Source of the DNA: Puccinia triticina
Taxonomy: Eukaryota > Basidiomycota > Pucciniomycetes > Pucciniales > Pucciniaceae
Reading direction: 5' to 3'
Assembly (NCBI RefSeq): GCF_026914185.1
Contig: NC_070575.1
Location: 496,001-560,000 of the forward strand
Length of the DNA: 64,000 nt
Position 1 is the stretch's first letter, and the number at the start of each line of letters is the position of its first letter. This document shows, piece after piece, positions 6,901 through 64,000 of the stretch. The position numbers were made by a program, and so were the translations under genes. The notes beneath the pieces were generated by a model. That model worked only from the letters and a program-made list of their open reading frames with translations, ran no database searches and was not told the DNA's origin.

Positions 6901-9900
6901 GGTAGAAGAACCTTTTGGGGCTATTAGAGGGCACGAGGTAAAGATTACTCTTACCATTGATAAACCCTATCCACCAGCGCTCAGGAAAGCACCCTATCCT
7001 GCAAGCCCTAGGAACAAAGCGGCCCTAGAAGAACATATTAAACTTCTCACTAAGATGGGAATTATCTGTAAAGTCGGGTGTAATGAGAATGTTGATATTA
7101 CTACGCCAGTGATCATAGCTTGGCACAATGGCAAGTCACGTTTGGTAGGTGACTTTAGAGCACTAAACAGCTATACGACCCCTGATAGATACCCAATGCC
7201 TAAAATCATGGAATCACTCACGAGGCTCCATAAAGCCCGTTTTATTACCTGCATGGACGTCTTGAAGGGTTTTCACCAAAATATTGTACATCAAGACAGC
7301 CGCAAATTCTTGCGCATAATCTGTCATCTAGGCATCCACGAATATCTTCGGATGCCTTTTGGCATTAAGAATGCCCCTTCTCATTTTCAACGGATGATGG
7401 ATAATGAGTTTCACAAGGAACTGAGTGGACTCTGGGTTATCATTTATATTGATGACATCATCATCTTTAGTGAAGACTGGTCAGAACACCTAACACAAGT
7501 GGGGCGGATCCTGCAAAAAGTGATTCGGATGAACATGAAAATATCTTTGACCAAGTGTTCTTTTGGTTTCACGGAGCTGAAAGCTCTCGGACACATTGTT
7601 AACGGCCTCTCACTAGCCATAGACCAGTATCGGGTCGCGGCAGTATTGTTAAAGCCTATTCCATCTAACATTAAAGAACTACAATCATTTCTGGGGTTTG
7701 CGGGATATTACCGATTACACGTGAAAGACTTTAGCTTAATGGCAGGATGTCTTTATAAACTCTGCAGTCCGGCGGTAGGATTCGAGATGACAAAGGAACG
7801 AGTCCAGGCCTATGAGGATCTGAAGCTAGCCCTGACGACAGCGCCACTCTTATTCCACCCGGATTCCTCGAAACCTTTCAAGTTATACGTAGACGCCTGT
7901 ATGGAGGGACTAGGGGCAGCACTGCACCAAGTCCAGATCATTAATGACAAACCCCTAGAGGGACCGATCTGTTTCATTTCCAGGCAATTGAAAGATTCGG
8001 AAAAATGGTATGGAGCGTCGCAATTGGAGTGTCTTTGCTTAGTATGGGCCTTGGACAAGCTATACTATTATTTAGATGGCTGTGTCTTCGAGGTCATAAC
8101 TGATTGTGTAGCGCTGAAATCCTTGCTAAACATGTCCACACCTAGCAGACACATGCTAAGGTGGCAGATATCAATTCAGGATTGGAGGGGCTCGATGACC
8201 ATCACGCACAGAGACGGTATTATTCATAAGAACGCTGATGGCCTGTCACGCTGGGCTCTGCCGAACAATGACTCTAACCCAGCAGCTGATCAAGAGGAAG
8301 TAGAGCGCGAAGTACCTATAATGGCGATTTCGCTAAGCGGGCTTTCCAGCGAATTTTGGGACGCAGTGGAACGTAGCTACCAAACGGATAAGAACTCCCT
8401 TTGCTTGATCGGAATTCTCCAAGCAAAGAATCCCCGACAGGACCTCATCGCACAATTGGATGAACCATGGAAATCCCACTTCCAGTCAGGAAGGTTTATT
8501 CTTCTCGACGGCCTCTTATACCATAGATCAGAGAACCACTGCGCGCTAGTCCTGGTTTCTAAAGATCATATAGCAACTATGTTGCACGAATGCCATGATA
8601 ACATTGGAGCGGCTCATTTTTCCAAAGAACGCACGACGGAGCGGGTTAAAATCCTAGCTTGGTGGCCTAAGTGGAGAACGGAAGTCGAGAAGTACTGCGA
8701 ATGCTGTGATTGTTGTCAGAAAGCAAATAGAACAACAGGAAAGAGGTTTGGACTCCTTCAAAGGATCAAGGAACCAAAGAACCGCTGGGAAGTCATTAAT
8801 ATGGACTTCGTTACAGCTCTCCCAACAGCGGGAAAAGAGAACTTCAACACAGTTCTAGTCATTGTAGACCGTTTTTCTAGAAGGGCGCGCTTTATCCCTT
8901 GCCACAAAGATAACACGGCAATGGACGTAGCCCTTCTGTTTTGGAACAATATCATTAGCGATGTAGGTTGTCCGCAGGTCATTATTAGCGACAGAGACCC
9001 GAAGTTCACTTCAGAGTTCTGGAAAAATTTGTTTAATATCCTAGGAACAAAGCTGGCTTTCTCTACTGCTTATCACCCCCAAACGGATGGACTCGCAGAA
9101 AGGATGATACAAACGCTGGAGGATATGATCCGCAGATATTGCGCCTACGGTTTACAATTCAAGGACGCCGAGAGTTATACTCATGACTGGGTATCCTTGC
9201 TTCCAGCGTTGGAATACGCGTATAACTCGAGTAAGCACTCGACAACAGGATTGTCTCCCTTTGAGCTAGAGAGAGGATGGTTACCGAAGATGCCCAAAGA
9301 TATGCTTCTTAGCAATACCGTTCAGATTCACCCATCAGCCTCTTGTTTTCAAGAAATGATGATTAAAGCGGAATCTAAAGCCAGTGCGTGTGTCGCAGAA
9401 GCCGTAGAATATAATAAAGAACGATGGGACCGATCACACAAAAACCACGACTTGAAAGTCGGGGATCTAGTTCTGGTCTCAACTATTAACTTTAGTAACT
9501 TAGGAGGCTCTAGGAAATTAAAAGATGCGTTTGTGGGCCCGTTTGTAATTAAATGTTTTCACGGCGAAAACGCTGTAGAACTGCTCCTTGCAGAGGTATT
9601 TGATCTCAAGCACCCTACTTTCCCTATCAGTCTGGTTAAGAGGTACAGACTGCCCGACGGCAAAGACGCGCCTCCAGTTGCAGATGCGACTCCACCGCCC
9701 TTTGACGAACCTACGGAGGAGGATACCCCGTCTTTGATTTTGGACGAGAAACTCACTAGACAAAACGGTCAAGACTGCCGTCTTTACCTTACCAGGTTTA
9801 AAAAGAAGCATGCGGACGCCGATAAATGGCTACCTAAGGATAAGATACCAGGGGCAGATGTTTTACTGCGCAAGTTTCGCGCAAGTAAGCGCTCCAAGGA

Positions 9901-22398: not shown

Positions 22399-23688
22399 CG
22401 TGGTCCTCGGCTGGAGTGGCTGAGCGGAGGGAACGGAAAACTATGTAATATTGCTCAGCCTCACTCCTGCCGGCTAGCCGGCCCGGCGCATACCACAAAC
22501 CAACCACCACCACCACACCACAAACACCCCACAAACAATCCGCCAGAACAAGCCATACTGCCCTCAGAACTAGCTCATCAAGACAGGAGAAGAAAACAGT
22601 GCAAACTGGGAATGCTTCATAATTTCCGCTAGGCATGGCAATCGGGCGGGCCTGCGAAGAAGGCCGCCCGAGCCGCAGGCCCGCCCCGCTTGCGGTGGGC
22701 TGCTGCGGGCTGGTGCTTGCCCAGCCTGCGAGCCACCCCAGCCCACCCCGAACTTGACACAAGCCCCTCGTACCCAGTATGGTAGAGTGGCGCGGGGCGG
22801 CGTGTGCAACCCCACTACCATTGGTAGAGGGACTTGCATGCAATCCCACTTTCACGGCGTGACAGCAGGAAACCCTTTTGGTGTAGAGCACACCTTTTCG
22901 GCACTACACCTCACAAACCCAGAAAAGCTTGTTTTTTTTTTCACTAAGGATGATGGCCTGCATCTTGCAGTCATCGTAGTCTATTCAGAATTTTAGTTTG
23001 AGCATACAAGTATCTCATTTATTTTTTTGAAAACTCTGGGTTTTGAAGATCCCTCTTTGACCATTAAGCTCCAAACCCATGATCTATAATTAAATCTTAA
23101 GTTAATTCTCCCGTGCCTTTTCCTCTTTTTTCCCGATCACGATTGATTAGTAAGCTACAGTAGGCTACAGTCCTCTAGCAAATCTCGGCCCGACGGAACC
23201 TCAACCTGCTCACCTTGTCGGCGACAACGATTGATCTCGGCTGGACGGAAATCGCTCAAATCATCGGTATTTGGTTCACTCAACGGAACCTGCTCACCTC
23301 GTTGGCAACGGAACCTGCTCAGCTCGTTGGCAACAGCACCATTCATTTGCATCTGGTTCCCGCCGGTAAGTCCATCAAATCACCCATTCAAAAACTTCAC
23401 ATCCCCCACCCATCCCCAAAAGCACTGCATTGTGGTGCGCGGCCGGGGCGACGTTGCCTCCCCGCCATAGTGTTGTGGGGTCGAGTGGAAACCGGCCTTG
23501 TTGCTGTGGGACCTTTGGCTTGTCTTTTGGGGAATGAAGTGGGGAGGTTGTGTGTATGTAGTTCAACCATTTTTGCTTGCTGACTGTCTTGCTTCTTCTC
23601 CGCCCCCATATCCTTGGCCGCAATCACTCAAATCAGCAAGAAAAAAAATCAGCTTTGCCCCAACCAAACTCAGCAAGCAACTAGCATA
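22399..23688. other. Intergenic region between set9 and the DUF6589 gene
   Basis: It contains the probable set9 promoter and a GC-rich repeat (22630-22745). A segment at about 22746-22860, inverted, resembles 35565-35690; both share TTGCATGCAAGTCCCT and AAGTTCGG. The part from 23160 to 23688 has tandem CGGAACCTGCTCA-like repeats and is probably the leader of the DUF6589 gene. No extra gene is recognised. Confidence 0.5.
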
Positions 23689-26530
23689 ATGCCTTTGAAG
23701 AAAACACTTGACTGGATACCGCCACCACGCCCCAAAAAAGAAAGAGATAAGATTCAGCTCATCTGTGATTTAATAGCGGCCATGGATTTTACGCCAAAAT
23801 CTTTCTTTGCCGCTTTCCTCAAGAACCCAGACATGGCGGCTGCTGTCGAACGCCGATATTGGTCTACGCCAGTTGGAATTCCCTCCACTATCCGACTTGT
23901 CAAAACCATTCGTAACAACATTCAGGAGAATCGTGAGGGAACAACTGCATGGCATGACTTCATTCTCAATGAGGCGAGTCAATTCTTCTTAATTTTGAGC
24001 TTGGATTTCATATACTAATTCCTTGGCGGCTTACCTTTGTAATTTCAGGCCTCTATCATTGTTCAAAACGAGAACCCTCCGACCGGTTATTTTCCCAAGG
24101 GTGGATATTACAGCTCCGAGAAGATCAGGGCCAACTTTTTTGATTCCAATGCAAAGGGCCTGCGCGATCAAGAGCTTGTGGAGCAGCACATGCCCTTTTT
24201 GTTCAAACTTGTCACAAACAAAATGTGCCTCGATTTGACTCCTCCCCCAATGGACCCATCTGACAGACTTGATGACGAAGATGTCCCACTTGAGAATTCT
24301 GACGCTGATGAACACAAGCCTGATCTCTCTGGTGATGGACCTAATGCTCTTCCAGATCGTCAGCAGCGAGTGATCACTGTAAGCTCTCTTTTCACATTCT
24401 CATTGAATTATTGACCAACAAACATGTTTTTTATTAATATTTTCAATAGACCGGGAAAACCATTTGTGCAATGGTTGCTTATCTGGCCAATTGAAGGCAC
24501 AACGGTCTTCAAATATCCAATAGCTTATCGTTCTTGGCGTGCGGAGTTTCCGAGCGGGTAAATAAGTATCTACAGCAGATTGGTCTGACTTGCTCTTGAC
24601 AAACAGGCATTTCGGCATTGAAGACTCTTGGACAAGAATCTGTGTCAAATATCTCTAAAAAACTAGCCAACAAATCTAATGATCCAATTCCTGCCTTCCT
24701 CTGCATCAATAACTTGGATTTCAAACAGCGGGTCCACTCAAAATCTCAAGGCCACAATACAAAGATGTTCCACGGTACGTGGGGCTATATTCATCAACTC
24801 AACCCGGCAATTACATCCTCACTATCGCCAGAAGAAATCACCCTTCACGCATTTAAAGAAGCAATGTCGAAAGCCGCATCTGTTGAGATACACCCAAAGA
24901 CTCTTTATGGTAGCATTGCCAAACACCTTCATTGGAAGGAGGTCCTCAAGTCTCAGATTTCTACTGTCCTCCTGAAATATCTCGTTGAGCCGGCTGATAA
25001 AAAAATTCATGTTCAAACCACCCCGCCCACAGTCGAGCAGATCCCGCATACCCCTCCCAACATCACCATGATGAAATTGATGGTCGCCTCAGATGAATCT
25101 TTGCAAGGAGTCTCCGATGTCTTTGATGGGATCCTCCAGCAGTCTTCAGTATCCGAGGAAGACTTCTACAACCGGTTACAGGTCATTGATGCCGACTTGG
25201 CAACCTGTCAAAATGTTCAAAGTCTACGAAATCTTTGAATCCCAAACCATCGCAACAAAGAGAATCTCACAAGCATACTCACAGTTCTTGGCGGCGCACA
25301 CACCCTCTGGAATATTGCTGGAGCAATCTTCACTCTCCACTTGGGAAACTCGGCCGACAGTTGTGATTCCGGTGCTTGGCGTTTCTTAGATGCATTAGGA
25401 ATGCCATCGGACAAGCCTATCAACAAGAAAGACTTCACCTTGATGATTCAGAACATGGAGAAAATCCATGAGGCGACAATATGCCATCTATTAATGTAAG
25501 CCACTGCTGTAGCAAATTTTTCCATCTCACCAACTGATGAATTGAACATGGTTTTTGACAGGGTTGTCATGGGTATTGACAACACGGTACTAGGCCCAAA
25601 ACTCCGCAAGCTCCCTTCCAATAAGATTAAACTCATTGTTGATGAGTGCTACAACCGCTTCTTCACCGCATCTGCTGTCCGTAAAGCCGGGGAAAATCTC
25701 TCTCCAAAGTTATCCAATCAACTTCTTCGGACAATCGATTTTGCCAGCGTTGTCAAAGCCAATAGGGCAATGAAATCAGGTGATATAGGTAGGGTCATGT
25801 ACATGTGGAAGCGCTGGTCAGTGATGTCTCAGTCAATGAAGAAACTCAAGAATTACGCTATTCATCTACTGTGAATGGTCATTCTTTTGGAGAAAATCTT
25901 GCCGCCTGCTCTGAGTAAGGCAATTCGACTGTCTCTTTTCATTGCTCCAAGCGGAAGGCGCAAACACTTTGTGGCCAAGGACTTCTTTCTGGAATCGCAA
26001 AACTACTGGCTCAAGTATATATTCAATCACACAGGAAAGGGAACAGAAATTGATCGCCTCAAGGACATTTATTCACCTAATGTGTCTCTGGTAGATTTAA
26101 TCTTTTCAATCAAATCATTTTTCCTGTCTGACATCGAATTTCTCCTTTGAATGTCTAGCTACAAAACTTAATACACGATTTGAAAGAAGAAAGCGGACTG
26201 GTCAACTATCACCAATCCCACAAAAACACAATCACCCTCCGATCTCTCAACAGCTGCCTCCAAATGACGCAAAACAACGATATCTGTGCCATTTCTCCTC
26301 AAGCTGGGCAATATATCCCAGCTAGCATCCCAAATTATTATACAAAAGGTTTGGAAAAAATACAAAAGAGTGTTGAAGGTGATCAGAAATTGTGGCTCCG
26401 ATTGCGTCCACCTGCGGTTCCTATGTGGAAAGAGGGTCAAGGGGCCTTGGATTTTGGAGACTTTTCTGCCGATATCAATGGTGGTGATGGTTCAAGCGAC
26501 GGTTCAAGCACCGGGTCCCTGGAGCTTTGA
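23689..26530 (+). pseudogene. DUF6589-family gene, copy 1, with four TGA interruptions
   Basis: Exons 23689-23973, 24049-24378, 24450-25495, 25562-26090 and 26159-26530 give an 853-codon frame. Intron 1 has a GC donor (GCGAGT), a TACTAAT branch site and an AG acceptor; the rest are GT-AG. The C-terminal part (GDIGRVMYMWKRW, HFVAKDFFLESQNYWLK, then GTEIDRLKDIYSPNV) is typical of basidiomycete DUF6589 proteins, whose biochemical function is not known to me. Premature TGAs lie at 24492, 24597, 25236 and 25872. At least two align with Arg in copy 2 (53013-57332). All four intron positions are shared with copy 2. The last 94 bp overlap, in antisense, the end of the facing helicase gene. I infer a transposition-related role from the pairing and the terminal repeats around copy 2. 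Confidence 0.8.
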
Positions 26531-29017
26531 TATCTGGTTCCGTCTTGTGGTGCGTTTAGACATTCCATCCTAGCCCGCTCGTTTTCTTCTGATGGTTCGT
26601 AGGCTGCTCTCTTGAAAATAGCTAGACATCGCTGATCCTCTTTGAGCTTTTTCTTCTTCCTTGCAATCTCCTCCCCTTTCAAAAGTTCTACCCGTTTTCT
26701 CTTCTGGCCAACCCTCTCGGCACCCTCTGCTTCTAACCTTAGCTGTTCTGCGGACCGAGAAGCGATCTCTCTATTGAGTCGATCCATTTTATTTTGGACG
26801 TCCTCATTGTACTGCGTCTTGTTTGTTAAGTAGGCCTTGAACTCAGAACCTTCACGAAATTCATTGATGATTCCAAACAACAAGTCAAACAGCCCATCGA
26901 GGCTCTCCGCGCCCAGGACTTTTGAGAGATCTCGTATACTTCTGATGTCGTCCAAGCCCTCTACAACCCTCTCTGCGTGCCGTTCTCCAAAAATATGGTC
27001 CGGCATGAATGAAGCACAATCGCTGAGGTTTTCTTCAAAATATTCATTGAACCTCTTGACTAGAACCGATTTCAAGTTGGAGTACAAATGATTTCTCTCT
27101 TGTACTTGCTTTTTTTGTGAATTTCGAGCTTTTTTGGTTGGTAAGCTAGCAGTTTTCTCTGTAAAGGTATTAAGCGGGTTTTCAAGGGCATCATCCCAGT
27201 TATTGATGGTCATTTGCTTCCATTTTCTTGCCAACAACTCGGCCTCTTCCGGCAAGCAGTTAGAACACTCGCACGGGGGGAATTTCTTCACTCCTTCGCG
27301 CATCTTTTCCGCCAGGTAGCTTGGATCATCAAAAGAAACTGGGATGTATCCATTTCTATCAAAGAATTCAAATGTAAGGTTTCTTTAAAAAATCAATTAC
27401 AAGAATGGGAAAATATCTTACATATTATCGACAGAGATTGCTATTCGTAGGCAAACTGGAGTCACGGCCAGTGCATCCATCCGACAATCATCCTCTTGGT
27501 CGTCCTCCCCGGTAAAATCCTCAACACAATTCTTCCCAAACTTGCGATGGCGCTCCATAAATAGAATAGCAAGCCCAGTTCTCCCATCTCGACCAGCACG
27601 GCCAATCATCTGACTGATAGTAGAAGGATCTCCTCGCCCCATGTGGATAACCCGACGCACACGCTTCCAGTTTTGGCCAAGTCCGAGTGCCATCGTACAG
27701 GACATACAAGGAAACTCCTCGGCGTTGAAGAGGTCAATGGCTTCCTTTTTCTCCTTTTCCCCGCTAGCAGCGTGGTATCGGCGAATGATGGGGCTGTGTG
27801 GGTTGTATTCACATCCAGGAGTTCCTCGGGCCTGGTTCACCACCTTCATAACCTTTAAGGTTGCATTGCGGGTCCCAGAGTATATCAGAGTAGGTGGAAT
27901 ATCTTGCTTGCTGACTTCTTCCTTTGTCGCAAAAACATCTAGCAGGTCATTTCCTGATGCTAAAGAAGACTTCATTGGCACTTGGATGATTCGAATCTCG
28001 GGACGTGTCAATTCTCCTCGGACAAATGTAACATTTTCGCTAGTTATTTTCAAGCTTTTCATGATGCTTTTGATTGCAATTGGCTGACATGTAGCTGATT
28101 GAAGCAGCACCAGAACTCCATAGATTGCCATTAGACGAGCTCCTAAATTTCCGTACAATGGTCTGAAGATTCCGCGATCCTGTGTTCATGCGTGGGACGA
28201 GCTCCGTTTTGCCTTGCCCTTGGCAACAAGGCCCCATAGGTATATCATATGGGCTTCATCCACAACCACCAAAGCCAATCGATCCTGAAACTGCTTCTTG
28301 TAGAAGACGTAATTGAATAGTCCGTTATTGAGGAAAACTTTGGGACTCTGTACGAAATACATATGGTTGGCGCAGTGCTCAAGTAGTCATTCCGAAAGCA
28401 GAAAACTTACCAAATAAATAAAGCTATAATCCCCCTTGATAATATTATCGGCCACCTTCCTCGTAAACGTCATCTTTGTCAGACTGATTGCAGTCATTCC
28501 ATCCTTTTCTTTCTCCGCCACCTAGATGTATAAAAATGTAAATAATTAAATATATATAATAACTTGAAGTAAAATATTCACATACTTGATTCTCTCCAAG
28601 GGAATCAAGCGGATTCAACACCAGCATAGTCGCCTTCCGTGTTGAGGGGGCAAACAAGTGGTGATACATTTCGGCGATCCGAGTCTTCCCGGAACCGGTG
28701 CCCGATAAAACAAATGTATTTCTTTTTTTTACAAGATTTACAACGGCATTGACCTGTAAAGCCGTCGGTGTTTGACCAAAAAAGGACTTCAAATCTTTGA
28801 TAATGTACTCCCGGAGAGAATCATCATCCATATCAAGTATTGTCTGTATCAACTTGATCCTACTGTCTCGGACAGCTTGATTCTTGAAGAATTTCTTAGC
28901 TAGACTTTTGGGAGACATCGGACCGGCACTCAAAGATCTTGAAGAGGAATTTGAGGTGGAACTTGATGAAGAACTCAAAGATGCCCTCGTCGGCACTTTG
29001 ATTGGTACTCTAGGCAT
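26437..29017 (-). pseudogene. RecQ-like DNA helicase, copy 1, one TGA interruption
   Basis: Exons (minus) 28586-29017, 28411-28521, 27422-28347 and 26437-27355 with GT-AG introns give a 795-codon frame. Superfamily 2 motifs are in order: Walker A GTGSGKT (near residue 105), DEAH box (VVVDEAH), motif III SAT and motif VI QMIGRAGRDGR. A CxCxxC cluster (CECSNC) follows where RecQ helicases bind zinc. The C-terminal third is charged and helical, possibly coiled coil. One premature TGA (28186-28188) falls where copy 2 has Arg-His. The gene is convergent with the DUF6589 gene and overlaps its stop by 94 bp. No HRDC domain is apparent. Confidence 0.8.
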
Positions 29018-29856
29018 GTTTGCAGCCGTCTGGTCAGTATTGTTTTGTCAGTGTGTTCTGCTGGTTCTTGATTTTCTGGGTTCTCCTTTGATGATTGTGA
29101 TCACAACACACTCCGCCGAGGAGCTTACCGATGACCATTGGAGACTTACAGAAAGTCAGTGGCCCTCACGTGAAAAGAGCTATGGCTTTTGTGATTTCAC
29201 ACTCCGATGGCATCAATTACAATCGGGCATTGCATTGAAAAAAAGAGCAGCTCAACGCGAATTTCTTTTGTCATTATAAAATCAAGTTTACTTGATAGGG
29301 AAAAGCTACATAGTACAAGAGGTCCGCATCAGATCATACAAGGATTCCATGCCTTGGAATAGTCATCTAAGTGTGTGGGTTTTTTTATATCTAATTTAAA
29401 GGGGTAATCGGGGTAATTTGCGAATGCTGTCAGCCCCGCAACCCGACTTTGCATATAAGCCTCTCTACGAGAGTGTTGCCCCCGCAACACCTCCAGAGAG
29501 GCTGTATAAGCTCGAGCCCACCCAACAGCTAGGCAAATTGGGCACGTACACCACGGAGCGCGGTCGACTGTGGCTCGACGCGGAAATTGGGGTTGGGCCG
29601 ACCCTCCTGTGTCCCGCCAGATATTTGGGTGGGCTTTGTAGCGGGAAAAGATGGCACCCGCGGTTGGCTTGACTGCCAGCGTAGGGTTGGCGTAAAACCA
29701 CTCCGTCAGCCCGCGGTCAAACAAACTCCCAACACCAGTCTGACGTTGGTGCACCACTGTCAGCCCTGCATCCAACGTTGGCCTGCCGTAGGCGCCGCAG
29801 TCAGGATTGGGTCAAGAGACCTGAGGGCGACTTGCCAAAAATTACTTTCTCCCCAG
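29018..29856. other. Upstream region of helicase copy 1 and repeat-derived DNA
   Basis: No gene is recognised. The first 250 bp probably hold the helicase promoter. The 148-codon minus frame at 29329-29775 has no domain and covers GC-rich, palindrome-containing DNA that may be the body of a SINE whose head lies at 29857-29926. I found no terminal inverted repeat here matching the one around copy 2. Confidence 0.45.
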
Positions 29857-46749: not shown

Positions 46750-47150
46750 GCTGATGACCGGCACAGACCGGTCATCGGGATGATATCCGAATCCCCTCCA
46801 TGGCCGGTCAGACCGGTCAACCAGCCATTGAGGGGTGTGAGTTCCCTCAAAGGCCAGTCAGACCGGTCATCGAGAGAAGTGAGTCCCCTCGATGACCGGT
46901 GCAGACCGGTCATCGGGAGGATATCCGAATCCCCTCCATGGCCTGTCAGACCGGTCAACCAGCCATCAAGGGGTGTGAGTTCCCTTGATGGCCAGTCAGA
47001 CCGTTCATTGAGAGGAGTGAGTCCCCTCGATGACTGGCACAGACCGGGCAGCGGGAGGAGATCTGATTTCCCTATATGGCCGGTCAGACCGGTCATTGAG
47101 AGTTTTCAGTCCCCTCGATGGCCGGCATAGACCGGTCATCGAGAGATGTG
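46750..47150. repeat. Dyad-symmetric satellite array
   Basis: Units with GATGACCGG...CCGGTCATC dyads and TGGCCGGTCAGACCGGTCA alternate with spacers such as ATATCCGAATCCCCTCC, in a higher-order repeat of about 110 bp. The core resembles arrays at 2285-2610 and 60540-61085. Confidence 0.8.
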
Positions 47151-50770: not shown

Positions 50771-51868
50771 ATGTCTGGAACTGGTAAGTCCGCCACCAAC
50801 AACCAACACTCATCCTCCCTTTGCCGTTGTACTCTTCATAATGACTCGACGGCTGCAATAATCTTCAACAGGCGCCCGCGAGAATGTATTCCCGACCCGG
50901 ATGAACCTGAACATAGTCAAGCAGCGTCTCAAGGGGGCCCAGACGGGGCACTCGCTGTTGAAGAAGAAGGTCGATGCGCTCACCAAGCGGTTCCGGGCGA
51001 TTACCCAGAAGATAGACTCCACCAAGCGCGAGATGGGCCGGGTCATGCAACTCGCCGCTTTCAGTCTCGCCGAGGTTTCCTACACCTCCGGGGCCGATAT
51101 CGGCTATCAGCTGCAGGAATCCGTCAAGGAGGCCACCTTCAAGGTCTCTACTCATCAGGAAAACGTCTCCGGTGTCATCCTACCTACCTTTGGAGTCGAT
51201 CGCACTAAGCCGGGAGGAGCTGGTGAGTAGAGATTTCCGTACGACGGCATATTGCATCAGAAAGAGTAACGAAAACTCGGCTGATTGGTACTGTGTTTCA
51301 TCAGAACTTACTTTGACCGGCTTGGGTCGTGGTGGCCAGCAAATAACCAAGGCCAGGGAAATCTATGCCAAAGCAACCGAGACGCTTGTCGAACTGGCAT
51401 CCCTTCAGGTAGACTTGCGCTCTTCGAAACCACTCTGATTCCCTCTGCTGATTCGGTTTCTTGGCAAAAACAGACGGCTTTTGTGATTCTTGACGAGGTT
51501 ATCAGGATGACTAATCGTCGTGTTAATGCGTTGGAGCATGTGGTCATACCCAAACTAGAGAACACTGTAAAGTCAGTATTCTACTCTCATCACCCATATG
51601 GCCCAGTTGAAATTTGAAAGCCAAATGACTTACATGTCCGAAAACTGTCGAACCAACTTGTGGTAGATATATTAACTCGGAACTAGACGAGGGCGACCGG
51701 GAAGATTTCTTCCGATTAAAGAAAGTCCAGGCGAAGAAGAAAGAACGAACGGCGATCGCCGAGGCCGAGAAGCGCGAGCGGATCCATGCTGGCCAGGTCG
51801 ACGAGTTCGATGATGCCGCCGGGGGAACTGATCTGCTGGGCGAGCGAGATGAAGACGTGATTTTCTGA
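50771..51868 (+). CDS. VMA8: V-type ATPase subunit D
   Basis: Exons 50771-50783, 50872-51222, 51305-51408, 51474-51571 and 51667-51868, with GT-AG introns of 88, 82, 65 and 95 bp, give 255 aa, a normal length for subunit D. The product starts MSGTGARENVFPTRMNL and contains the conserved KGHSLLKKKVDAL-like segment (here TGHSLLKKKVDALTKRFRAI) and, near the end, RRVNALEHVVIPKLENTVKY. The subunit forms the coiled-coil central stalk that couples ATP hydrolysis in V1 to proton pumping through Vo at the vacuolar membrane. The stop is TGA at 51866. This gene and set9 are the only clear, unbroken host genes here. The locus is otherwise surrounded by mobile elements. Confidence 0.95.
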
Positions 51869-52198
51869 GGTACTAGAGGACCCTGGAAACCTAACCTAGC
51901 TAATTCCCTCCTCGGGGGAGCGAAGCGACCTCCGAAGGAGGGACTTACACGCTATGTTGACCCCGCGGCAGTAGAGAATTAGGCATTTTGGTGGGGACTT
52001 TTTTTAAAACCAATCTCCCACATGAGTTTCTGAACCTTTTTTTATCTGATTTACATTTCTGGGATGGCTTAAGCTGCTCCCTTCTTTCTACTATTTTTTC
52101 TCATCCTCAACTCTGGTTGAGCTGCAATCATAGTTGTAACATTATCAATTTCAGATTCTGTACAGTGCAAAATGTGGAATGCACATTGAAGTGGACAC

Positions 52199-52262
52199 TG
52201 GAGGACTTCCCTTTGATTTACACGGCCGTGTAAAGTCAGATTTGGCACTTGTAAAGCCAAAT
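52199..52262 (+). repeat. Left terminal inverted repeat of the DUF6589/helicase element
   Basis: Begins TGGAGGACTTCCC, contains the perfect palindrome TTTACACGGCCGTGTAAA, then GTCAGATTTGG and CTTGTAAAGCCA. Confidence 0.8.
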
Positions 52263-52319
52263 TTTTACACCCTGGTTTTACACGCACTTTTCAGCGGCTA
52301 GATCAAACCAGAACATCCC

Positions 52320-52400
52320 TCTCGATGGCTGGTACAGACCGGTCATCGAGAGTACACAACCCTCCTGATAGCTGGTCTGTACCGGTCATTGAGAGGATTC
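52320..52400. repeat. Short dyad satellite inside the left end
   Basis: Two to three units such as CTCTCGATGGCTGGTACAGA followed by CCGGTCATCGAGAG. It is the same unit type as the long array at 60540-61085, in mirrored position. Confidence 0.75.
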
Positions 52401-53012
52401 AACCGAACTTAACTAAGCCCCTTGTCCCCGCAGCGGCCGGGGGGCACCCAATTGGCCTGGTCGAGATGCATAGCATCGAGATCTCTCCCGCAGGGAGAGG
52501 ACTTAGGAATTATCAGGCTTTTTGGCCTGAGAGAATCTGCAAACTTTGGTGGCAGCCAATGTCGCCACCACCTGCACAACTTAGTTTTAGACGAGTTTTT
52601 TTTTTGTCGTCATGGCTCAAAGCCTGTAATTTTCCTAACCAAACTGTGTATTCAAAATTCTCACAATCCCTCCCCTCCATGCCCAAAAAAAATACGCAAA
52701 CTTTTGGATTCTTGGCCGCTTACCGGCAAAGCCATGGGCTTTTTGGGCTCCTCTTTTTTTCGGAGCCCTCCTCTTTTTTTAGACCATTCTGACTTTTCTC
52801 CCGATCACTCTTCTTTTTTTCAAACAACCTCTCTTGATCACTCTCTCCCTCTCAATCAACCGCATACAGTCTTCGTATACAAGATTCCAATCCCTCCGAT
52901 CATCCAGAAACCAATCCCTCCAATCATCCCAACAGCAATCCCTCCAACTGTTCAAAAGCAATCCCTCCGACCATCCAAAACCAATCTCTCCGAGCATCCC
53001 AACAGCAAAATC

Positions 53013-56000
53013 ATGGTACTGCACACCATCCAGTTCAACCACAAGAAAAAGAAACAAACCAAACTTTCAAAACTCAAGGCGGTATGTTCTTGCATGACAG
53101 AGATGAATCTGACCCCAAAGACATTCCTCTCTTCCTTCCTCACTATTGAAAACCACGAAATTGCTTTTCAACACCGATACTGGAGGAGCAAAAGGGGATG
53201 GGACTCGATGTTGAAACTATTCGAGACAATTTGTGGGTTTGTTTCCAAACATAAAAGTGGCAAAGGGCAATGGGAGAGGTTTATACTTGACGAGGTAGAT
53301 TCTTTTCAGATTACTCTTTTTGTCCGCAAGTTGATATTTATTAGGTGATTTTTTGGCTAACTACTTTACTTGCTTTTTTAAAAAAACCAGGCGTCCAAAA
53401 TCGTAACATTTCAACAACCGCCGAGTGGAGCTTACCCCAAGGGCGGATACCACAACACAAAATCAATAACTGAAGAGATGTTTACTCCCAAATCAAAAGT
53501 GAAAACAGATCACGAACTTGTGACGGATCACATGCCCTTCTTGTTTGAACTGATCTACCAAAAGCTAGCGAGTCACCCGGGCACCACCATTGATCCCAAC
53601 CTCGAAGATGACGGTCCCAACCAGAAAGAAGCTGTCCCTCCAACGGATTTGGATGGAAACAGACTCAAGCCGAACGATGAGGTAGATGTTGAATTACCCC
53701 TTGATCCCAATAAACGAGCTTACATGGTACGACTTTCAGCTTCTCATTATTTGTATTGATGTTTTTCCCCTGTGAGACTGACTTTTGATCTTTCTTCTCT
53801 TTTCTAAAAACAGGTCGCAAAGACCATCTGCTCAATGGTGGCGTTTGTCAAAAACCGCAGAAATAACGGCCATCAACTTGCAAACTCCCTAACTTTCCTT
53901 GCATGCGGGGTCACCGATGTGGTATGCTTTATGGTTACCCATCTAGCCCATTTCAAAATTTTCCATTTTCTCATATGTACACTCACAAATCAACCAATAC
54001 GGCAACACCATTGGATTCTACGGCCAAAACTACACAGGACAACATGGACAACACACCTTACACCCCTCTAGATCAGAAGATACAACCCCTTCAAGACACC
54101 ATCAGCCGGTTTCACGCACACAAACACCATACTCAGGTCATGTAATCCGTTACATGAACCACCCTTACCCAGGACCATGTAATCCGTTACATGGTCCGCT
54201 CTGACACTTGTCTACCCTTTACAGATGCTTTACCTCATCAGCTGCACTCACTACATTGTGTTATGCACGCATCATGCAGTATCATGCAGTGTCATGCAGT
54301 GTCATGCACACTAGATGCAGGCTTATGCAGGCTTATGCAGGCTTATGCAGGCTTATGCAGTCTTATGCAGGCTTATGCAGGCTTATGCAGGCTTATGCAG
54401 TCTTGTGCAGGCTCATGCAGGTGCATGCAGACTAGTGTAATAGGGGCTGCAGTTCATGCAGGTGTCAAGCTAGCAAAAACCCCTCATGCAGCTTACACAT
54501 GACATCAGTTGACAGCTCAGGCTAGCTAAATTCCCTCGTATGACATCATTTGACAGACAGGGGCAGTACAGATGATCAGATGACCCAATGACATCATATG
54601 TCAATGACATCATAGGCCAAACTCAAACCTCTCACCTCCACGTTCTCACCAGCTAAATTCCCTCATCATTACATCGTGTGACCTGTCAAACGGGCTAAAT
54701 TCCCTCATCTAGGCTGTACCACCAGCCAAAATCCCTCATTTGACAGCTCAGGGCAGCTAAAACCCCTCATTCCCTGGTTCCCCTGGAGCTAAAATCCCTC
54801 ACCCTTTTCTATTTAAGGAGGCTCTCCTCCCCCCAGTTGTAATTTCTCTCAGCAAACTACTTGCACTCAGCTTACCCCATAAACAGTACAACACTTGCTC
54901 ACTCTACAGTATTAGCCCCCACTATATTGTGGTTTTACCCTTATTACATAACAATTACATACATACAACAACACTATTACATTGCTCAATCATCATCAAC
55001 CCCTCTGTCAGGGTGTTCCACAACCTCTTTGCGGCAACACACGGACCATATCAACTTACAACTCGCTCAGCACCGGTTACATCACCCATATCCCCTAAGC
55101 CACTTGTTCGACGTAGGCTATCTTTTGATACACCTCCACTATCACTACATAAACCTTCCAATCGTAGATTGGGGGGCTTGTTTTAGTGTCTAGTGACCCA
55201 GGAAAGGCAGAGGTAACCTCATTCATCCCTTTCCGCACTCAGCAAAAGGTTCTCAGGAACACTTTTGAGCTTTACACCGATTGGGTCAATTTCTTTTTGA
55301 ACTATATTGGATTATCCTCATCTCGAAAAACTGCTCATCACGCACTGAACACCCTAAGCCGAAGATCTCGCCTCCAAATTTCCAGCAAGCTTTCCAAGCA
55401 AGTTGCCCCGACTCTGGGAGCTTTCCTATGCTTCGACAACCTTGATTTCGAACAGAGGATCCAAACGAAGTCCGTCAGCCAGTCTAACCGTATGTTCCAT
55501 GGAACCTGGGGTTACATCCACCACCCCAACCCGAAGCTAGTTGCCTCAGTTCCTTCCTGCGAGCTCAGTCTTGAACGCTATCTGCAGGCAATGTCAAAAT
55601 TGGAAACCTTCGATGTCCACTCTCAAATGTTGCTGCCAACACCAAAGGAAGAAGTGAATTGGGAGTGTGTAATCAAGAGCCAGATCACTTCAGCTATGCT
55701 CGATCACTTAGTCACCCCATCTGATTGTTACATATCGCTCAGTACCACTCCTCCGGTAATCGATCAGATATCGACTGAGCCTCCTGATATAACAATGTTA
55801 AAGCTTATGATCGCCTCCGACAACTCGGCGCAAGGAGCTGGCGAAGTGTTTGACGCCATTGTCAATCAGTCAACAAATATAGCTATGTCCGACTTTGCAT
55901 CTCGGCTTCAAGTAATTGATGGCGACTTGGCTACCTGCACAAACGTCACAACTTTACGAACTCAGCGGATGCCCAGCTGACACCAAGAAGAAAGTCTGAT

Positions 56001-57332
56001 CAATGTTGTGACAGTTTTGGGGGGAGCGCACACGCTGTGGAACATTAGTCAGGCTATCTACTCCAAGCACGTTGGAGATATCTCAGACTCTCGCGACTCA
56101 GGGGCATTGCGATTTCTTGATGCGTTAGGTATACCCTCAAATAACATGACAGGAAAGAAAGACTTCACCACAATGATTAAGAACATCAAGAAGATTCATC
56201 GAGCCAGCTTAGTTCACTGTCTCATGTGAGCGGGTTTTTTTTCCTCTTTTTTGATCTTGTTTTGCTCCTCTGTTTTTTGACTCGTTGATTCCATTCACAG
56301 GGTTGTTATGGGCACTGAGGAGAAGCATCTCACCGAAGACCTTCCGAAAATGTCTAGCGCAAGGATCAAAGAAGTCATCAATCAGACTTACAATCGATTC
56401 TTCTCAATTGAGGCTAGACAAGGTGCCAGGCTTCAGACTTCGCCGAAGCTCTTGAATCTAATTTTAAGACTGTCTGATTTCGCCACTATCGTGGAAGGAA
56501 ACGCTGCAATGAAAGCCGGAGATATGGGGCGCATTATGAATGTTTGGAAGCGGTGGGCGGTCATTGCCCAAGGAATAAAAAAATTGACAAATTACTCAAT
56601 CCAACTCCTCATGAGGATGATCATCCTTCTCAACGAAATTCTACCGCCAGGACTGGGTAAGATAATAAAACACTCCATGTTTGTAGCCCCAAATGGGAAA
56701 CAAAAGCATTTCGTTGCGAAGGATCATTACCTCGAAAACCAAAACTATTGGTTAAAACATTTCTTCAACAACACCGGCCGGGGCTCCAATATTGATTGAC
56801 TCAAGGATGTCTACTCTCCAAATGTGCCTTTGGTAAGTAGTTTGCATCTTTTATCAACGGGAATCAAGATTCTAACTTGAATCCTTTGTAGCTTTGAGAC
56901 TTAATAGGCACACTAACATCTGACTGCGAAAAGGACCTGATTGTGCAATCACATCATAACCGGATCGATCTCTTATCACTCAACAACTGTATGCGTATGT
57001 GTTGACAAAACAACGCTTGCTTGATTGCTACAAAGCTCAACGAACTTATCCCCAAGGAGGTTGAGTACTTATACGCCTTAGGAATCAAGAAAATGAAAAT
57101 CAAATTTATGCAGAAGGGAAAACCCCTCAACAAACTCCGACCGCCACCGATAACGAAATGGAGCCCCCAAGTCGAGAATCAACTAAACGAATCAAATAAT
57201 AACGGATCAGAGATCAGCTCAGAGGGCGATTCAGAGCCGGGTGGATCAGATAACGATCTTGAAAGCAGTGGTAGGGACAATTTTGGAAGCAGTGACGACA
57301 ATCATTTGGAAAGCGGAGAAGATGAAGACTAA
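53013..57332 (+). pseudogene. DUF6589-family gene, copy 2, with TGA stops and a solo-LTR insertion
   Basis: Exons 53013-53294, 53391-53726, 53814-56225 (interrupted by an LTR at 53918-55276), 56301-56832 and 56892-57332. Removing the insertion restores GVTD followed by WVNFFLNYIGL, in line with copy 1. Intron positions match copy 1 exactly. Conserved blocks include HMPFLFEL, FLACGV, FDNLDFEQR, MFHGTWGYIHH, LQVIDGDLATC, VLGGAHTLWNI, GDMGRIMNVWKRW and HYLENQNYWLK. Premature TGAs lie at 55978, 56797, 56895 and 57003. The normal stop is TAA (57330). By eye it is roughly half identical to copy 1, so the two are old relatives and not a recent duplication. Confidence 0.8.
53918..55276 (+). mobile_element. 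Solo LTR (TGTGGTA...TTACA family) inserted in the DUF6589 gene
   Basis: It begins TGTGGTATGC and ends CACTTTTGAGCTTTACA, flanked by CCGA (or 5-bp CCGAT). It carries seven boxes like AGCTAAAATCCCTCA between 54470 and 54800, a tandem array of the 10-mer GCTTATGCAG (about 54310-54410) and a TATA box (CTATTTAAGG, 54818) followed by a C-rich start region. Same family as 11242-12411 and 44312. Confidence 0.8.
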
Positions 57333-57336
57333 ATAT

Positions 57337-59679
57337 TTACCTGAGCTTTTGTCTCTTATCGGCGTGAGCTTTTTTGAACTCTTCTAGTACCACCTTTTCC
57401 GCCTCCCATTTCTTCTTTGCTTCTAATTTTCTTTTGGCTTCGGCCTGCTCTTTTTTAGTCTTGTTTTCAGCCCGGATTTGCCTGTTCTCCAGCACTCGGC
57501 TCGCACTGGCCCTGGGCTTTCTTGCTCCAACAATCGACGACGTCCCTTCTCCGTTGCCGGGCGTAACTGTGTCCAACCTTGGCAGTGTGGCAAGCTTTAT
57601 AACTGATCTTACTGCGCTGAATTAGCCGATTTTTGTGACGGGGCCGAGTTGATTGGTACAATCTTTATCTTTAAGTTTTGTAATCTTGCCATTTCACTAT
57701 CTATGTATTTGGAGTATTCCTCTTGCTCTTTCAAATAGTTTTGAATCTTGATAGTCAGGCCCAGATCAAAATTCTTCCAACCTCTTTTGTAACATCTCTA
57801 ACTCGCCATCCAGCTGTTCCCCACCGACATGCTTAGCAATGTCATTCCAAGTTTTAATTTGATCCAAATTTCTCGCAATGGTATCCGCCTCAGTTGGCCC
57901 AAAGATTTGCTCCAAGGAAAAAGCCCGCGGCCGCCCGTAAGTTTCAGTAAAAAATAACTTGAAGGACTCCAGCAATTTGTAATAAACTTTCAGCTCAATT
58001 GGTCAGAGGTCTCGTTCTTTTGGTTTGGTACCGCGTGAGTGTTTTTTTTTCTCTTTCTGAGCAGGAAGTGGCCCTGGTATTTCTTTTGGATTCTCTAAGA
58101 TTGGATCAAAGTTCTGATTACTAATCTGTTGCATTCGAGCCTTCAACATCTGGGCCTCCTCGGGATCACAATTTGAGCATTTACACGGATCAAATTTTGC
58201 CGTTCTCTCGCGAGATTCTTCGTGGATATAATTTACATCATCTTGGTCCATCGGTATGTATCCGTGCCTACAGTCAAATCAATGCTAAGTAAGTCCCTTG
58301 GAAGCAGATCATATGTAGAGTAATCAATCAACTGACAGGTTATCAATTGACAAAGCAATGCGGATGCAGACTGGTGTGATGGCCAGGGCATCCATGCGAG
58401 TATCATTTGCCTGTTTATTGGCTTTCTTGACTGCTTCAGGGGTGTTCAAGCCGGACTTGCGTTTTTTCTCGACAAATAGGATGGCTAGTCCTGGCTTGCC
58501 ATCACGCCCGCACCGACCAATCATCTGACTAATACATGAGGGATCGCCGCGGCCCATAGTGATGACCCGTCGAACTCGTTTCCAGTTCTGGCCCATCCCC
58601 AAGGCCATTGTACATGAAACAGACGAGAAATCCCCCCGCTCGTAACCGGAGATCGTGTCCAACTTGTCCATCTCGCTGGTGCTGGCATGATATCGTCAAA
58701 TCAACAGACTGTCTGGATTATATTCTTCACCAGCAGCACCATGGGCCTCATATACGACTTTCATAACTTGGAGTGTCGCATTTCTGGTGCCGGAGTAGAT
58801 CAATGTTGGTACCATATCCTTAGTTCCGACTTCTGCTTTGCCCGGAAACATCTGTAGCAGATCTTTTGCTGACTTGAGCGAACAATCCATTGGAAATGGA
58901 AGTATACGCAGCTCAGGCCGAGTCAGCTCAGCTCGGGAGAAAGAAATGTTATCCTCTGGAATCTTCAGGCTCTTGAGGATCTCGGTGACAGCAATCGGTC
59001 GACAAGTTGCCGAGAGGAACAGGACTGGAGTTTTCTCAGTCGCCATGATCTGACGGCCAAGTTCTCCATACAATGGGCGGAATACGGCTCGATCTTGATG
59101 ACGTTTGTGCGCGGACGACTTCTTGGCTTCCTTGTTGGCAACAAGACCCCAGGTGTAAATCACATGTGCCTCGTCGACCACAATTAACGCAAGGCGATCT
59201 TGGAAGGCCGTGTCGTGATAGATTTGCGAGAACATGGCGTTATTTAAGAAAACCTCTGGGCTGAGGTAAACAAAATTGTATTTTCCTTTCTGGATATCGG
59301 CCGCAACTTCCTGAGTGAAGTTCTGATTCTTCAGGTTAACAGCAGTGTACCCCGCAGCCGTTTTCTCTGCGACCTGATTGTTGCCCAACGCATCGAGCGG
59401 ATTCAGTACGAGAATGACCGCCTTCCTTGTTGTAGCAAAAAGGTTGTAATACATCTCCGAGATACGGGATTTGCCGCAACCCGTCCCGGCCATGACAAAC
59501 GTGTGCCGTCCCGCGACTAGGTTTGCCACCGCATCAACTTGGACTGGCTTCGGCGGCTCGTTCTCAGGGTAGCGTGGCAAGCAGTCGTCAACTATTGCTT
59601 GTTGCAAGGCGCTCTTGTCCATTCGGGTCCATTTTTTTGCTAACGTAGCTTTTGCTGACTTCCCTTTAGTCGGCGGCAT
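57337..59679 (-). pseudogene. RecQ-like DNA helicase, copy 2, decayed
   Basis: It starts MPPTKGKSAKATLAKKW. Exon 1 runs 59679-58337 with a premature TGA at 58696. After a 69-bp GT-AG intron (58268-58336), exon 2 continues from 58267, with a further TGA near 58010 and a one-base insertion in a T run near 57775 that shifts frame. Motifs: Walker A GTGCGKS, VVVDEAH, LSATCRP and QMIGRCGRDGK, then CxCxxC (CKCSNC). It lacks the first two introns of copy 1 but keeps the third. The C-terminus ends 4 bp from the stop of the facing DUF6589 gene. Family assignment is as for copy 1. Confidence 0.8.
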
Positions 59680-59831
59680 TCTCAGGATATCGACCAGATT
59701 TCAAGCTGAGTGCTCTATGTGATGCTTGGAACAAGGTGTCGGCGAGTTTTTGGAGTTTTGATGTACAAAGGATAATGATCAAGGGTTGAGGTGTATGCGT
59801 TCGGAGTGCTTTCCTTTTATTTAATACCTAT

Positions 59832-60086
59832 CACTGCAAAAAAAAATTGGTCAACTGCTTGCAGTTGACATGCAGGATACTCAAGCCAAGCTACCATTGT
59901 AACTCCACCTGAATGCACAAGTGCCTTTGTTGGCACAGTCACTGTGCAAGGTGCACAGTGACTGTGCATTGAAGCTTTGGTTGAGTCAAACCTTGGGTAA
60001 GGCTGGTGTAACACCACAAGCTTCCTCAGAGTTACCACATGTCAACTGCGTTACTGCTCACAGTTGAAACAGTTTTTTTTGCAGTG
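59832..60086. mobile_element. 255-bp MITE with CACTGCAAAAAA ends
   Basis: The left end CACTGCAAAAAAAAATTGGT and right end TTTTTTTTGCAGTG are inverted, continuing into GTCAACTGC/CAGTTGA. It is flanked by TAT on both sides (59829-59831 and 60087-60089), so the duplication may be TA or TAT, as in Tc1/mariner-like elements. It lies in the 5' region of helicase copy 2. Confidence 0.7.
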
Positions 60087-60539
60087 TATGTGCTGCTTGT
60101 TTTCTTGTTGATCTCTTTCTTTTTTTCATCTCACGATTGCTCGCTCTTTTTTTGCATGGCATCTCTATTCGCTCTGTCATGCAATAAAATGTTGTATCAC
60201 GTGTCTGGCATTTAATTTGAGAGGTATGGGGTTAATACAACATTTAATTAGGCAGGAAAGAAAAATGTAAAGGTCCGAGAAGACTTTGAGAAGTCGTACA
60301 TTTCAAAAAAAGATAGAAAAAAAACAAAACAAAAACCAGAGAAACTGAATACATAGGATTGAAGGCAAGCTACCAGCTCTCAGCTGGGATAAGTCGAGAA
60401 GAGCACAAAGGGAATTGAATATTTTATAATTGAAAAGCAAGAAACACTACGGTTAATTTCGAGATTCTCTCACACAAGAAACCCGTTGTTAGGCATAAGC
60501 CCCGCTTACACCTACGGCTCCGCGGTGCCGTGGGCTTTG
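60087..60539. other. Non-coding right-hand interior of the element
   Basis: Low-GC, with T and A runs. No gene. Near 60500-60550 it has similarity to the mirrored left interior (AACAAAGCCC on the minus strand against AACTAAGCCC near 52400), suggesting the inverted ends once extended further inward. Confidence 0.5.
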
Positions 60540-61085
60540 TTACGCTTGGGATTCAACCCTCTCGATACCCGGTCTATACCGGCCATCGAGAGGATTCAAC
60601 CCTCTTGATGCCCGGTATAGACCGGCCATTGAGAGTACGCAACCCCCTAGATGCCCGGTCAAGACTGGCCATCAAGAGTACACAACCATCTCGATGGCCG
60701 GTATAGACCGGTCATCGCAAGGACATAGCCCACTTGATGACCGGCCTGTACCTCGAGAGGACACATCCCTCTCGATGGCCGGTACAGACCGGCCATCAAG
60801 AGAGAGGGCACCACCCTCTGGCAGATCTGTGCCGGTCATCGAGGGGGTACATCTGTACCGGCCATCGAGAGGGGTCTGTACTCTCGATGACCGGTCTGTA
60901 CCGGCCATCAAGAGGGATGTGTCCTCTCAAGGGACAGGCCGGTCATCGAGTGATCAATGACCGGTCTATACCGGCCCTCGACCGGGCATCTAGAGGGTTG
61001 CGTACTCTCGATGGCCGGTCTATAGGGCATCGAGAGGGTTGAATCCTCTCGATGGCCGGTCTATACCGGGTATCTAGAGGGTTGT
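60540..61085. repeat. Long dyad satellite array inside the right end
   Basis: At least a dozen units of the type GATGACCGGT...ACCGGCCATC with 4-6 bp centres, joined by GAGAGG and CAACCCTCT-like spacers. It is perfectly placed as subterminal repeats of the TIR element. Confidence 0.85.
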
Positions 61086-61158
61086 AAATCTGGCAGGTAT
61101 TCTGGCATCTCAAGCCTGCGGAAAAGCTTCTAAAGCTAAAAATTACAAGGTGAGTCAG

Positions 61159-61222
61159 ATCTGGCTTTACAAGGGCCAGATCTGACTTTACACAGCTGTG
61201 TAAATCGAAGGGAAGTCCTCCA
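61159..61222 (-). repeat. Right terminal inverted repeat of the DUF6589/helicase element
   Basis: On the minus strand it begins TGGAGGACTTCCC and contains the palindrome TTTACACAGCTGTGTAAA. It differs from the left end at 6 of 64 positions, five of them transitions. Confidence 0.8.
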
Positions 61223-61339
61223 CTTGTCAGTCACAAAAAAGGACTTCATGGGGCACCCAAGGCCCCAAAAAATTTGTAAAATATGTAAAAAGAAAATCCA
61301 TGATGTTGTGCACATTTTGCTCCCCCAAAATTTCAGGGC

Positions 61340-61737: not shown

Positions 61738-64000
61738 ATGCAGCAGCTACTCCAGATGTTTCCGACCCTGGCCCCTCCAGCGGCAGCTCAATCAAATTCT
61801 CCAACCGTTCAGCTTCGGACTCCATCCAACAATACTCCGGCTCCACCCGCTCCCAATGATCATCTAGCTCTAACCAACGAGTCTCTGGCTACTCCTATTG
61901 ATTTTCCGGCTCCACCTGTTGATCCCCTGATTCCATCCCTTGACCCAACCCCGACTCCTCAATTGAATAATAAAGAAGACCGTTCTGAAAAAAACACCAT
62001 ATCCGACTCAGATGCGGACAACGTTGGTTCATCTCATGGAAAAGATGCAGGAAATGGCCTCAATGTCTCTACCTCTACCGAACTTCCTGTGATAACCAAT
62101 TTTGATGACTACAACTTTCTCTCCGGTGGTAAGTTGTCTTTTTTAATTGACTGTGTTTACATTTCAACTCAATGTTTTTGATGTTTTGATTTACTACGTA
62201 GAACCTTTAGATCCTCCCCCACCTGCTAAATTCAAATCGATGGAGGATTTGCTTTCTTTCTGTCAAATCTGGGCTAAACACCATCAATACGCAGTCGCCA
62301 CAGGGAGTTCTCATCAAAACAAAAACATATACATTATCTGTGATCGCTTGGGCCAGTTTTGTGGCTCAGTCGTGAATCAATCTGGACGTAAAACAAGCTC
62401 TTCGAAGACCAGCTGCCCCTTCAAGCTGAAAGGTTCAGTACCCACAAGCAAGAAAATCATGGTAAAAAACTGGACCTTGGAGATGATGAACGGCGAACAC
62501 AACCACAACCCTTCGGACAGACCTTCTTCCCATTCTGCACACAAAAAACTGGTCCCTGCCAAACTCAAGGAGATTCGAAAACTTTCAAATTCAAATCTCA
62601 AGCCATCCCAGATACTGCTACAGCTGTGAACTTCCAATAACGAAACGTTTGCAACAAACAAGACGATTAGCAATGCTCTCCAGAAGATCCGTCGTGAAGA
62701 TCTAGACGGTCGTGAGCCAACTGAGGCCCTCTTGCAAGTACTAAAGGAATCCAACTGGATGTGGGATGTTCAAGTTGACTCGAACGATAGTATCCTGAAT
62801 CTGTTTTTTGCTCACCCGGGATCCATTCACCTTGCTCGGATCAACCATCACGTTGCCCTGTTGGACTCAACATACAAAACAAACAAATATGATATTCCAT
62901 TGCTTCACATCATCGGTCAGGCGGCGTCGAATTGATTGTTTTCTATTGGATTCTGCTATATGACCTTCGAAGATACAGAAAACTATCTCTGGGCGGTCAA
63001 AAATCTCAAAAAACATATTTGGCGCCCTCAACGCACGCCAAAGGTCTTTGTAACCGATTGTGACACAACTTTACGGACCGCTTTGGATCAGTTTTTCCCC
63101 GACTTGCAAGCCAACCTGTGCACGTGGCACATCAACAAGAATATCACCACACATTGCAAAAAGCATTTCCCTTTGACAAAACCGGATAAATCAAGCGACT
63201 CAAGCAAAAAGAAAGTGGCTAATTTGTCGACAAAAGCAGCTCAATCAAGTGATTCAAAGAAAGCTCAGGAGAGCTGGGATACTTTCATGAATCTCTGGCA
63301 GCAAGTTACATTGTCAAAGTCAGCTGCAATTTACGAGGAGCGGATCACTACATTGAAGGAATTCCTGTTGACTCGTCCGGCTGTCATGGAATATCTCAAC
63401 AAAAACATACTTCCGGTGAAAGATCTGTTTGTTGTTGCATGGGCATGTCAGTACCCTCACCTCCGAAACCTAAACACATCAAGGGTTGAATCGGGCCACG
63501 CCTACCTCAAGACATTTGTGAAGAACTCTTGGGGTGACTTGTTATTGGTTTTCAAGTCATTGGCGCACGCGGTTGACTCGCAATTAAATCATGTTCACGA
63601 ATCCATTGGTTGAGATGTTGTCAAGACCCTGAAAAACGTCCCAAACTGCTTTATTCCTCTCCTAGGCCACATCTCGAACTTTGCGATCATTGAATGTCTC
63701 GCTCAATACAAACGGCTGGCCACACTTGACCCAACCGAACCATGTTCTAAAACTGTGACGATTGGGATTGGAATCCCTTGTGCACATCGAATCAGAGAGG
63801 TATTGGAAACCAGTGATTCTTTGACACCAGAAGATTTCCACCTACAGTGGCATTTGAGGTACAATCCTGAGATCACGGTATGTTGAGGATCTGAGCTTTT
63901 TCTTTAGTGTTTCTTCTGAAATTCAAGTCCTGAGCTGATCATTTTGATCGTTTGCGGGTGTCTTTTGCAGGAAGTTGAAGAGACCAAAATCGATCTGGAT
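61738..64000 (+). pseudogene. MULE-type transposase with FAR1-like zinc finger, interrupted and cut by window end
   Basis: Exons 61738-62128, 62202-63877 and 63971 onward, with GT-AG introns of 73 and 93 bp. A Pro/Ser-rich N-terminus is followed by a FAR1/WRKY-GCM1-type zinc finger (ICDRLGQFCG, CPFKLKG, then NGEHNHNPS). The MULE catalytic core follows: Asp in ALLDSTYKTNKYD, Asp in VFVTDCDTTL, the C-x2-H segment CTWHINK and Glu in SRVESGHAYLK. Premature TGAs lie at 62627, 62933 and 63611, with the frame otherwise open. It starts about 500 bp outside the right TIR of the neighbouring element and so is probably a separate transposon. Confidence 0.82.

Follow-up and report, generated by a model that had tools for sequence, protein, structure and literature searches.

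The AcademH lineage of Academ DNA transposons is attributed to Kojima 2020, as quoted in excerpts of PMC10045372 and PMC10799480. In the first excerpt, target duplications of 9 or 10 bp in AcademH and of 3 or 4 bp in AcademX are linked to their helicase and nuclease; the second records AcademH from Basidiomycota, Ascomycota, and Mucoromycota and lists it among the sources of DEAD/Helicase_C domains, and by the title of one of its references the lineage is found in fungi, Basidiomycota among them, as well as in animals (PMC10799480). KolobokH and helicase-bearing Kolobok elements appear in part of PMC9587614 as RecQ helicase DNA transposons in fungi, with one rhodophyte Kolobok carrying the helicase on the complementary strand. 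Helitron combines an HUH/Y1 transposase with a helicase (PMC12730594, excerpt), and IS256/MuDR elements leave duplications of 4 to 10 bp (PMC10045372, excerpt). Here we compare with these systems a locus of the rust fungus Puccinia triticina, in which a gene with a DUF6589 domain and a gene for a RecQ-like helicase lie together between inverted repeats. The window, that is, the whole stretch of DNA analyzed, comprises 64,000 nucleotides (C18:496001-560000), and the genome searched comprises 122.8 Mb in 18 contigs.

The ends and target duplications at this locus display two insertions, one inside the other. With a probability of about 0.78, we read them as two independent DNA transposons, a helicase-carrying DUF6589 element nested in an unrelated, gene-free repeat resembling a miniature inverted-repeat transposable element (MITE), the inner one having the set of features quoted for AcademH.

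The gene pair belongs to an inner element with its own ends

An earlier note on this DNA had described a single element bounded by 64-bp terminal inverted repeats (TIRs). The parts that it listed are indeed present: the 64-bp inverted termini lie at 52199-52262 and 61159-61222 (91% complementary), arrays of ~43-bp units stand on each side in inverted relation, and between the 64-bp ends a DUF6589 gene (+ strand) and a RecQ-like superfamily 2 (SF2) helicase gene (- strand) are arranged tail-to-tail. The 64-bp ends are not the bounds of the gene-carrying element, however. Contig C1 carries a further copy of the gene pair; its matched pieces show 97.4-98.0% identity, and the match spans element positions 204-8350 only. 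On C1 the copy stands between 9-bp repeats of GCTTGATCC, while the window copy is flanked by GGATTCAAC at 52395-52403 and 60549-60557, as seen by flank comparison. Since the common sequence ends at positions 204 and 8350 in both copies, each with a 9-bp repeat of its own, the inner element extends from 52404 to 60548 (+ strand), corresponding to C18:548404-556548, and measures 8145 bp, including two later inserts. Its left end, CGAACTTAACTAAGCCC (52404-52420, + strand), and its right end, which terminates in GTTACGCTTG (60532-60548, + strand), were recognized as ends common among copies, and the right-hand end is common to six further relatives (L040, L041, L043, L044, L045, and L057).

When the inner element and one GGATTCAAC were removed in silico, the remaining 868 bp aligned with 7/7 gene-less copies of the outer repeat, starting at the first base and continuing through the junction, and end to end with copy L008. 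The insertion point lies inside a 43-bp unit of the outer repeat; because the arrays are repetitive, other alignment registers are possible, the one given here being fixed by alignments that start at the TIR.

The 64-bp ends belong to a short repeat

The outer repeat occupies 52200-61221, these being its exact ends, and is flanked by the target duplication ACT on the left (52197-52199) and on the right (61222-61224). Inverted-repeat comparison and a genome pattern search place its TIRs at 52200-52262 (+ strand) and 61159-61221 (- strand); repeat comparison places the left 43-bp units at 52314-52399 (+ strand) and a right array of 41-43-bp units at 60554-61084. A genome-wide count of the end pattern gave 108 occurrences, against none in a reversed control. 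Pairing and co-occurrence were counted from 100 of the 108 ends. These form 39 opposed pairs within 25 kb, 26 of them 0.6-2.0 kb long and 13 longer, and a DUF6589 or helicase locus is held by one pair, the window's own; conversely, 1 of 66 DUF6589/helicase pairs has a listed end within 10 kb. The 64-bp ends thus lie mostly around unrelated DNA, an outcome by which the earlier note's proposal is, by its own standard, refuted as regards these ends. As support, the earlier note would have counted multiple copies with the 64-bp TIR enclosing the two genes and leaving a constant duplication: many copies and a constant 3-bp duplication were found, but the genes lie in the window's pair only, among the ends listed. 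Termini common to the gene pairs do exist, but they differ from the 64-bp ones.

Duplications of the outer repeat have the form A-N-T and are exact in 15 of the 17 copies scored, six of seven in a first set (the window, L003, L004, L006, L007, and L008; exception L005) and nine of ten in a second (exception L089). As L087 and L103 share flanks and represent one site, this amounts to 14 exact duplications among 16 independent sites. The scoring did not include L070. Like MITEs, the copies are mostly short, numerous, and TIR-bounded with a fixed 3-bp duplication, but they differ in having subterminal mirrored 43-bp arrays. In members such as L003 to L008 these arrays are internally palindromic. 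Eight of the 39 pairs, not counting the window's own, reach at least 8 kb, although among the longest some ends could have been paired falsely. These were considered as gene-carrying copies, and the one examined (L070, an 8-kb pair on C17) is instead an outer-repeat copy with a Ty3-like retrotransposon inside. No transposase of its own was found for the outer repeat, with one of the eight other long pairs examined. Elsewhere in the window, 2326-2608 and 46753-47147 contain further arrays of GATGACC-type units similar to the 43-bp arrays. Just beyond the outer repeat, open reading frames (ORFs) at 62147-63613 encode a MULE transposase domain (PF10551, 5.4e-12), and on its other side the outer repeat adjoins an ATP synthase subunit D-like ORF (50862-51227; PF01813, 7.5e-25) that is probably a host gene.

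DUF6589 and helicase genes form a family across the genome

Genome counts of both genes are lower bounds, with 102 of 223 DUF6589 and 120 of 305 helicase candidates scored. The PF20231 profile gave at least 104 matches in at least 83 merged loci, and the helicase at least 144 matches in at least 116 loci. A helicase lies at most 6 kb away at 66 of the 83 DUF6589 loci (~0.9 expected by chance), and all 66 pairs are tail-to-tail. The end patterns of the inner element recur in the genome, the left one with 17 and the right one with 63 occurrences, and neither appeared in reversed controls.

Where both inner-type ends were seen, the 9-bp duplication is exact at eight of nine loci. Two of these, the window and C1 6.63 Mb, are those whose genes were compared. 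The others are C7 5.91 Mb and C7 6.53 Mb (1.5 kb long); C1 4.93-4.95 Mb, where the ends are 22.7 kb apart; two very short copies, C12:173936-174062 (127 bp) and C2:7647844 (78 bp) (L076 and L082); and locus L069 on C4. The exception is C11 4.08 Mb, with six of nine bases alike. Single ends at C3, C18, C13, and C8 have no partner and were left out of the scoring, and at L084 a right end was found but no left end in the search there. L069 is a distant relative, its helicase being 49% identical; a longer inverted repeat at this locus ends at 9284 without a duplication, so that its boundary was set at 8503 by scanning for the duplication together with the end match. The window itself contains a second tail-to-tail pair at 23584-29047 (DUF6589 match 24918-26090, helicase 27787-28359), whose ends and duplications were not found, the three candidates listed matching 9 of 14 end bases. 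Among the best 120 of 139 matches, the homologs with an organism name are all from Puccinia rusts, and a profile search of proteins with DUF6589 returned mostly the same rust proteins (best 120 of 141 matches).

DUF6589 as a very probable DDE transposase

The DUF6589 gene region of the window copy (53012-57332, + strand) encodes the putative transposase and is interrupted. Pfam detects the domain (PF20231) in two pieces on the + strand (2.4e-9 and 1.8e-31), which fall in the ORFs 55168-55980 and 56281-56799. The solved folds nearest to its predicted structure are DDE transposases, namely, those of Hermes, the P element, and the IS256-type ISCth4, at ~10% identity, and D, D, and E residues are conserved, with D157 (or D160), D319, and E498 of the model as candidates for a common site. 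Neither piece matches the MULE (PF10551), hAT, or P families in Pfam at E up to 1. Because of the predicted fold, the conserved D/D/E, and the target duplications, DUF6589 is very probably the DDE transposase of the inner element. The earlier note's proposal of DUF6589 as the transposase with the helicase as its partner is thereby very probably right, considering also the frequency and uniform orientation of the gene pairs. A literature search on the word DUF6589 found no mention, and no title or abstract beginning among the matches listed describes a DUF6589/helicase pair; we regard the link between DUF6589 and a transposase as a useful point of this analysis.

The helicase core (58324-59700, - strand) was delimited by ORFs, Pfam, and PDB comparison. 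It has DEAD (7.5e-14) and Helicase_C (2.3e-5) domains on the - strand and is RecQ-like, with WRN as the best solved match (1.1e-9). The helicase of L069 matches the RecQ5 structure (5e-11) and the NCBIfam recQ model (2.3e-23), in the latter case with a score well below the cut-off of the model.

The window copy of the inner element is broken. In-frame stops occur in both genes, one of them between the helicase ORFs 58696-59700 and 58324-58695, and comparison with the C1 copy reveals two later inserts. The first, 1356 bp within the DUF6589 gene (53919-55274), has CACCGAT on both sides and no counterpart in the C1 copy; it contains a ATGCAGGCTT minisatellite and is possibly a solo long terminal repeat. 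The second, 255 bp (59832-60086), has inverted ends CACTGCAAAA (CACTGC) and TAT on both sides, is absent from the C1 copy, and appears CACTA-like, judging from its ends. Stop-free matches to both genes are present elsewhere in the genome.

Proposed mechanism

We propose that the outer repeat, which is short and bears 64-bp TIRs and subterminal 43-bp arrays, inserted first, leaving the 3-bp ACT duplication, and that the helicase-encoding transposon then entered one of its 43-bp units, leaving the 9-bp GGATTCAAC duplication. As judged from fold, D/D/E residues, and duplications, DUF6589 would be the DDE-type transposase: it would bind ends of the CGAACTTAACTAAG type, cleave them, and connect them to the target strands at points 9 bp apart. 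The convergently transcribed RecQ-like helicase would probably assist in the opening or processing of ends or repair intermediates. Since the short copies carry inner-type ends and 9-bp duplications, they were probably mobilized in trans. The window copy would later have been struck by the two further inserts, and it is now interrupted.

Alternative readings

A single TIR-bounded element at 52199-61222, with DUF6589 as a recombinase acting on the 64-bp ends, is scarcely credible: these ends do flank the genes at this locus, with a 3-bp duplication, but the C1 copy lacks both ends and arrays and is bounded by its own 9-bp duplication, all seven outer-repeat copies compared are uninterrupted at the insertion point, and genes and ends meet in only 1/39 end pairs and 1/66 gene pairs. 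We therefore reject 52199-61222 as the boundaries of the gene-carrying element. It is also very improbable that DUF6589 and the helicase are passengers and that another, unseen gene moves the element. Pfam gives nothing strong for the N-terminal ORFs of L069 (best 0.0056, with no systematic search for a third recurrent gene), which would leave room for such a gene, but the transposase-like predicted fold, the conserved D/D/E, and the regular pairing with the helicase speak against it.

A more serious, though still unlikely, alternative accepts the inner element as a DDE transposon with a helicase but takes DUF6589 to be other than Academ, either a separate, unnamed superfamily or a divergent MuDR/IS256 or hAT/P branch that acquired its helicase independently. 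The closest solved folds, the 9-bp duplications, which also fit the 4 to 10 bp given for IS256/MuDR in the excerpt of PMC10045372, and the silence of the literature found on DUF6589 favor it, as does the restriction of the comparison with Academ to quoted features; no literature joining Academ, XPG, transposase, and DDE was found. Against it, the two DUF6589 pieces have no MULE, hAT, or P match in Pfam at E up to 1, and a helicase together with 9-10-bp duplications is the feature quoted for AcademH (PMC10045372, excerpt). In its strongest form we consider it quite doubtful: DUF6589 would then stand for a DDE transposase superfamily that has no name so far, is frequent in rusts, has a convergent RecQ-like helicase and 9-bp duplications, and is distinct from Academ and from all named superfamilies.

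The analysis does away with a misleading association of the 64-bp TIRs with DUF6589 and gives an uncharacterized Pfam domain a probable function, that of a DDE transposase with a helicase partner. If DUF6589 is indeed such a transposase, many of the genes in rusts that are annotated simply as "DUF6589 domain-containing protein" would be transposon genes, and the ends and the duplication length can now be used in annotating DUF6589/helicase elements.

Comparison with known systems

P element, hAT, and IS256 transposases all have an RNase H-like core, and we know of no helicase partner in these families. P element, Hermes (hAT), and ISCth4 (IS256) structures are the nearest to the DUF6589 model, but the low identity and the lack of a Pfam match set DUF6589 apart. 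Helitrons make no target duplication; membership there was rejected, as no Helitron domain was detected in the pieces scanned (Pfam, E up to 1) and 9-bp duplications are present. Kolobok elements duplicate TTAA, whereas the duplications of the inner family are 9 bp long and of varied sequence. Helicase-bearing Kolobok is the nearest alternative by gene content, but its duplication does not fit. Like the inner family, it comprises DNA transposons with a RecQ helicase in fungi; unlike it, KolobokH has its helicase downstream of the transposase domain (PMC9587614, in part), while here the helicase is on the opposite strand in 66/66 pairs. As to MuDR/MULE, PF10551 did not match in the two DUF6589 pieces, although the fold is near IS256 and 9 bp is within the range quoted (PMC10045372, excerpt).

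With AcademH, the inner element shares a DDE-type transposase (here by a predicted fold that is not Academ-specific), an SF2 helicase, and a fungal host, as well as a target duplication of 9 bp, against 9 or 10 bp in the excerpt of PMC10045372. In the inner family the helicase has DEAD and Helicase_C domains, is RecQ-type by PDB and NCBIfam, and accompanies 66 of the 83 DUF6589 loci, and the host lineage, to judge from the named homologs listed, is that of the Puccinia rusts. On these quoted features (helicase, 9-10-bp duplications, Basidiomycota) we class the inner element as probably an AcademH family. The new class of eukaryotic DNA transposon suggested by the earlier note finds no support, AcademH, a DDD/E lineage with a helicase and 9-10-bp duplications, being already named in the excerpt of PMC10045372. 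Compared with Academ by quoted features only, the inner element most likely belongs, as a rust family, to a kind already known, probably AcademH.
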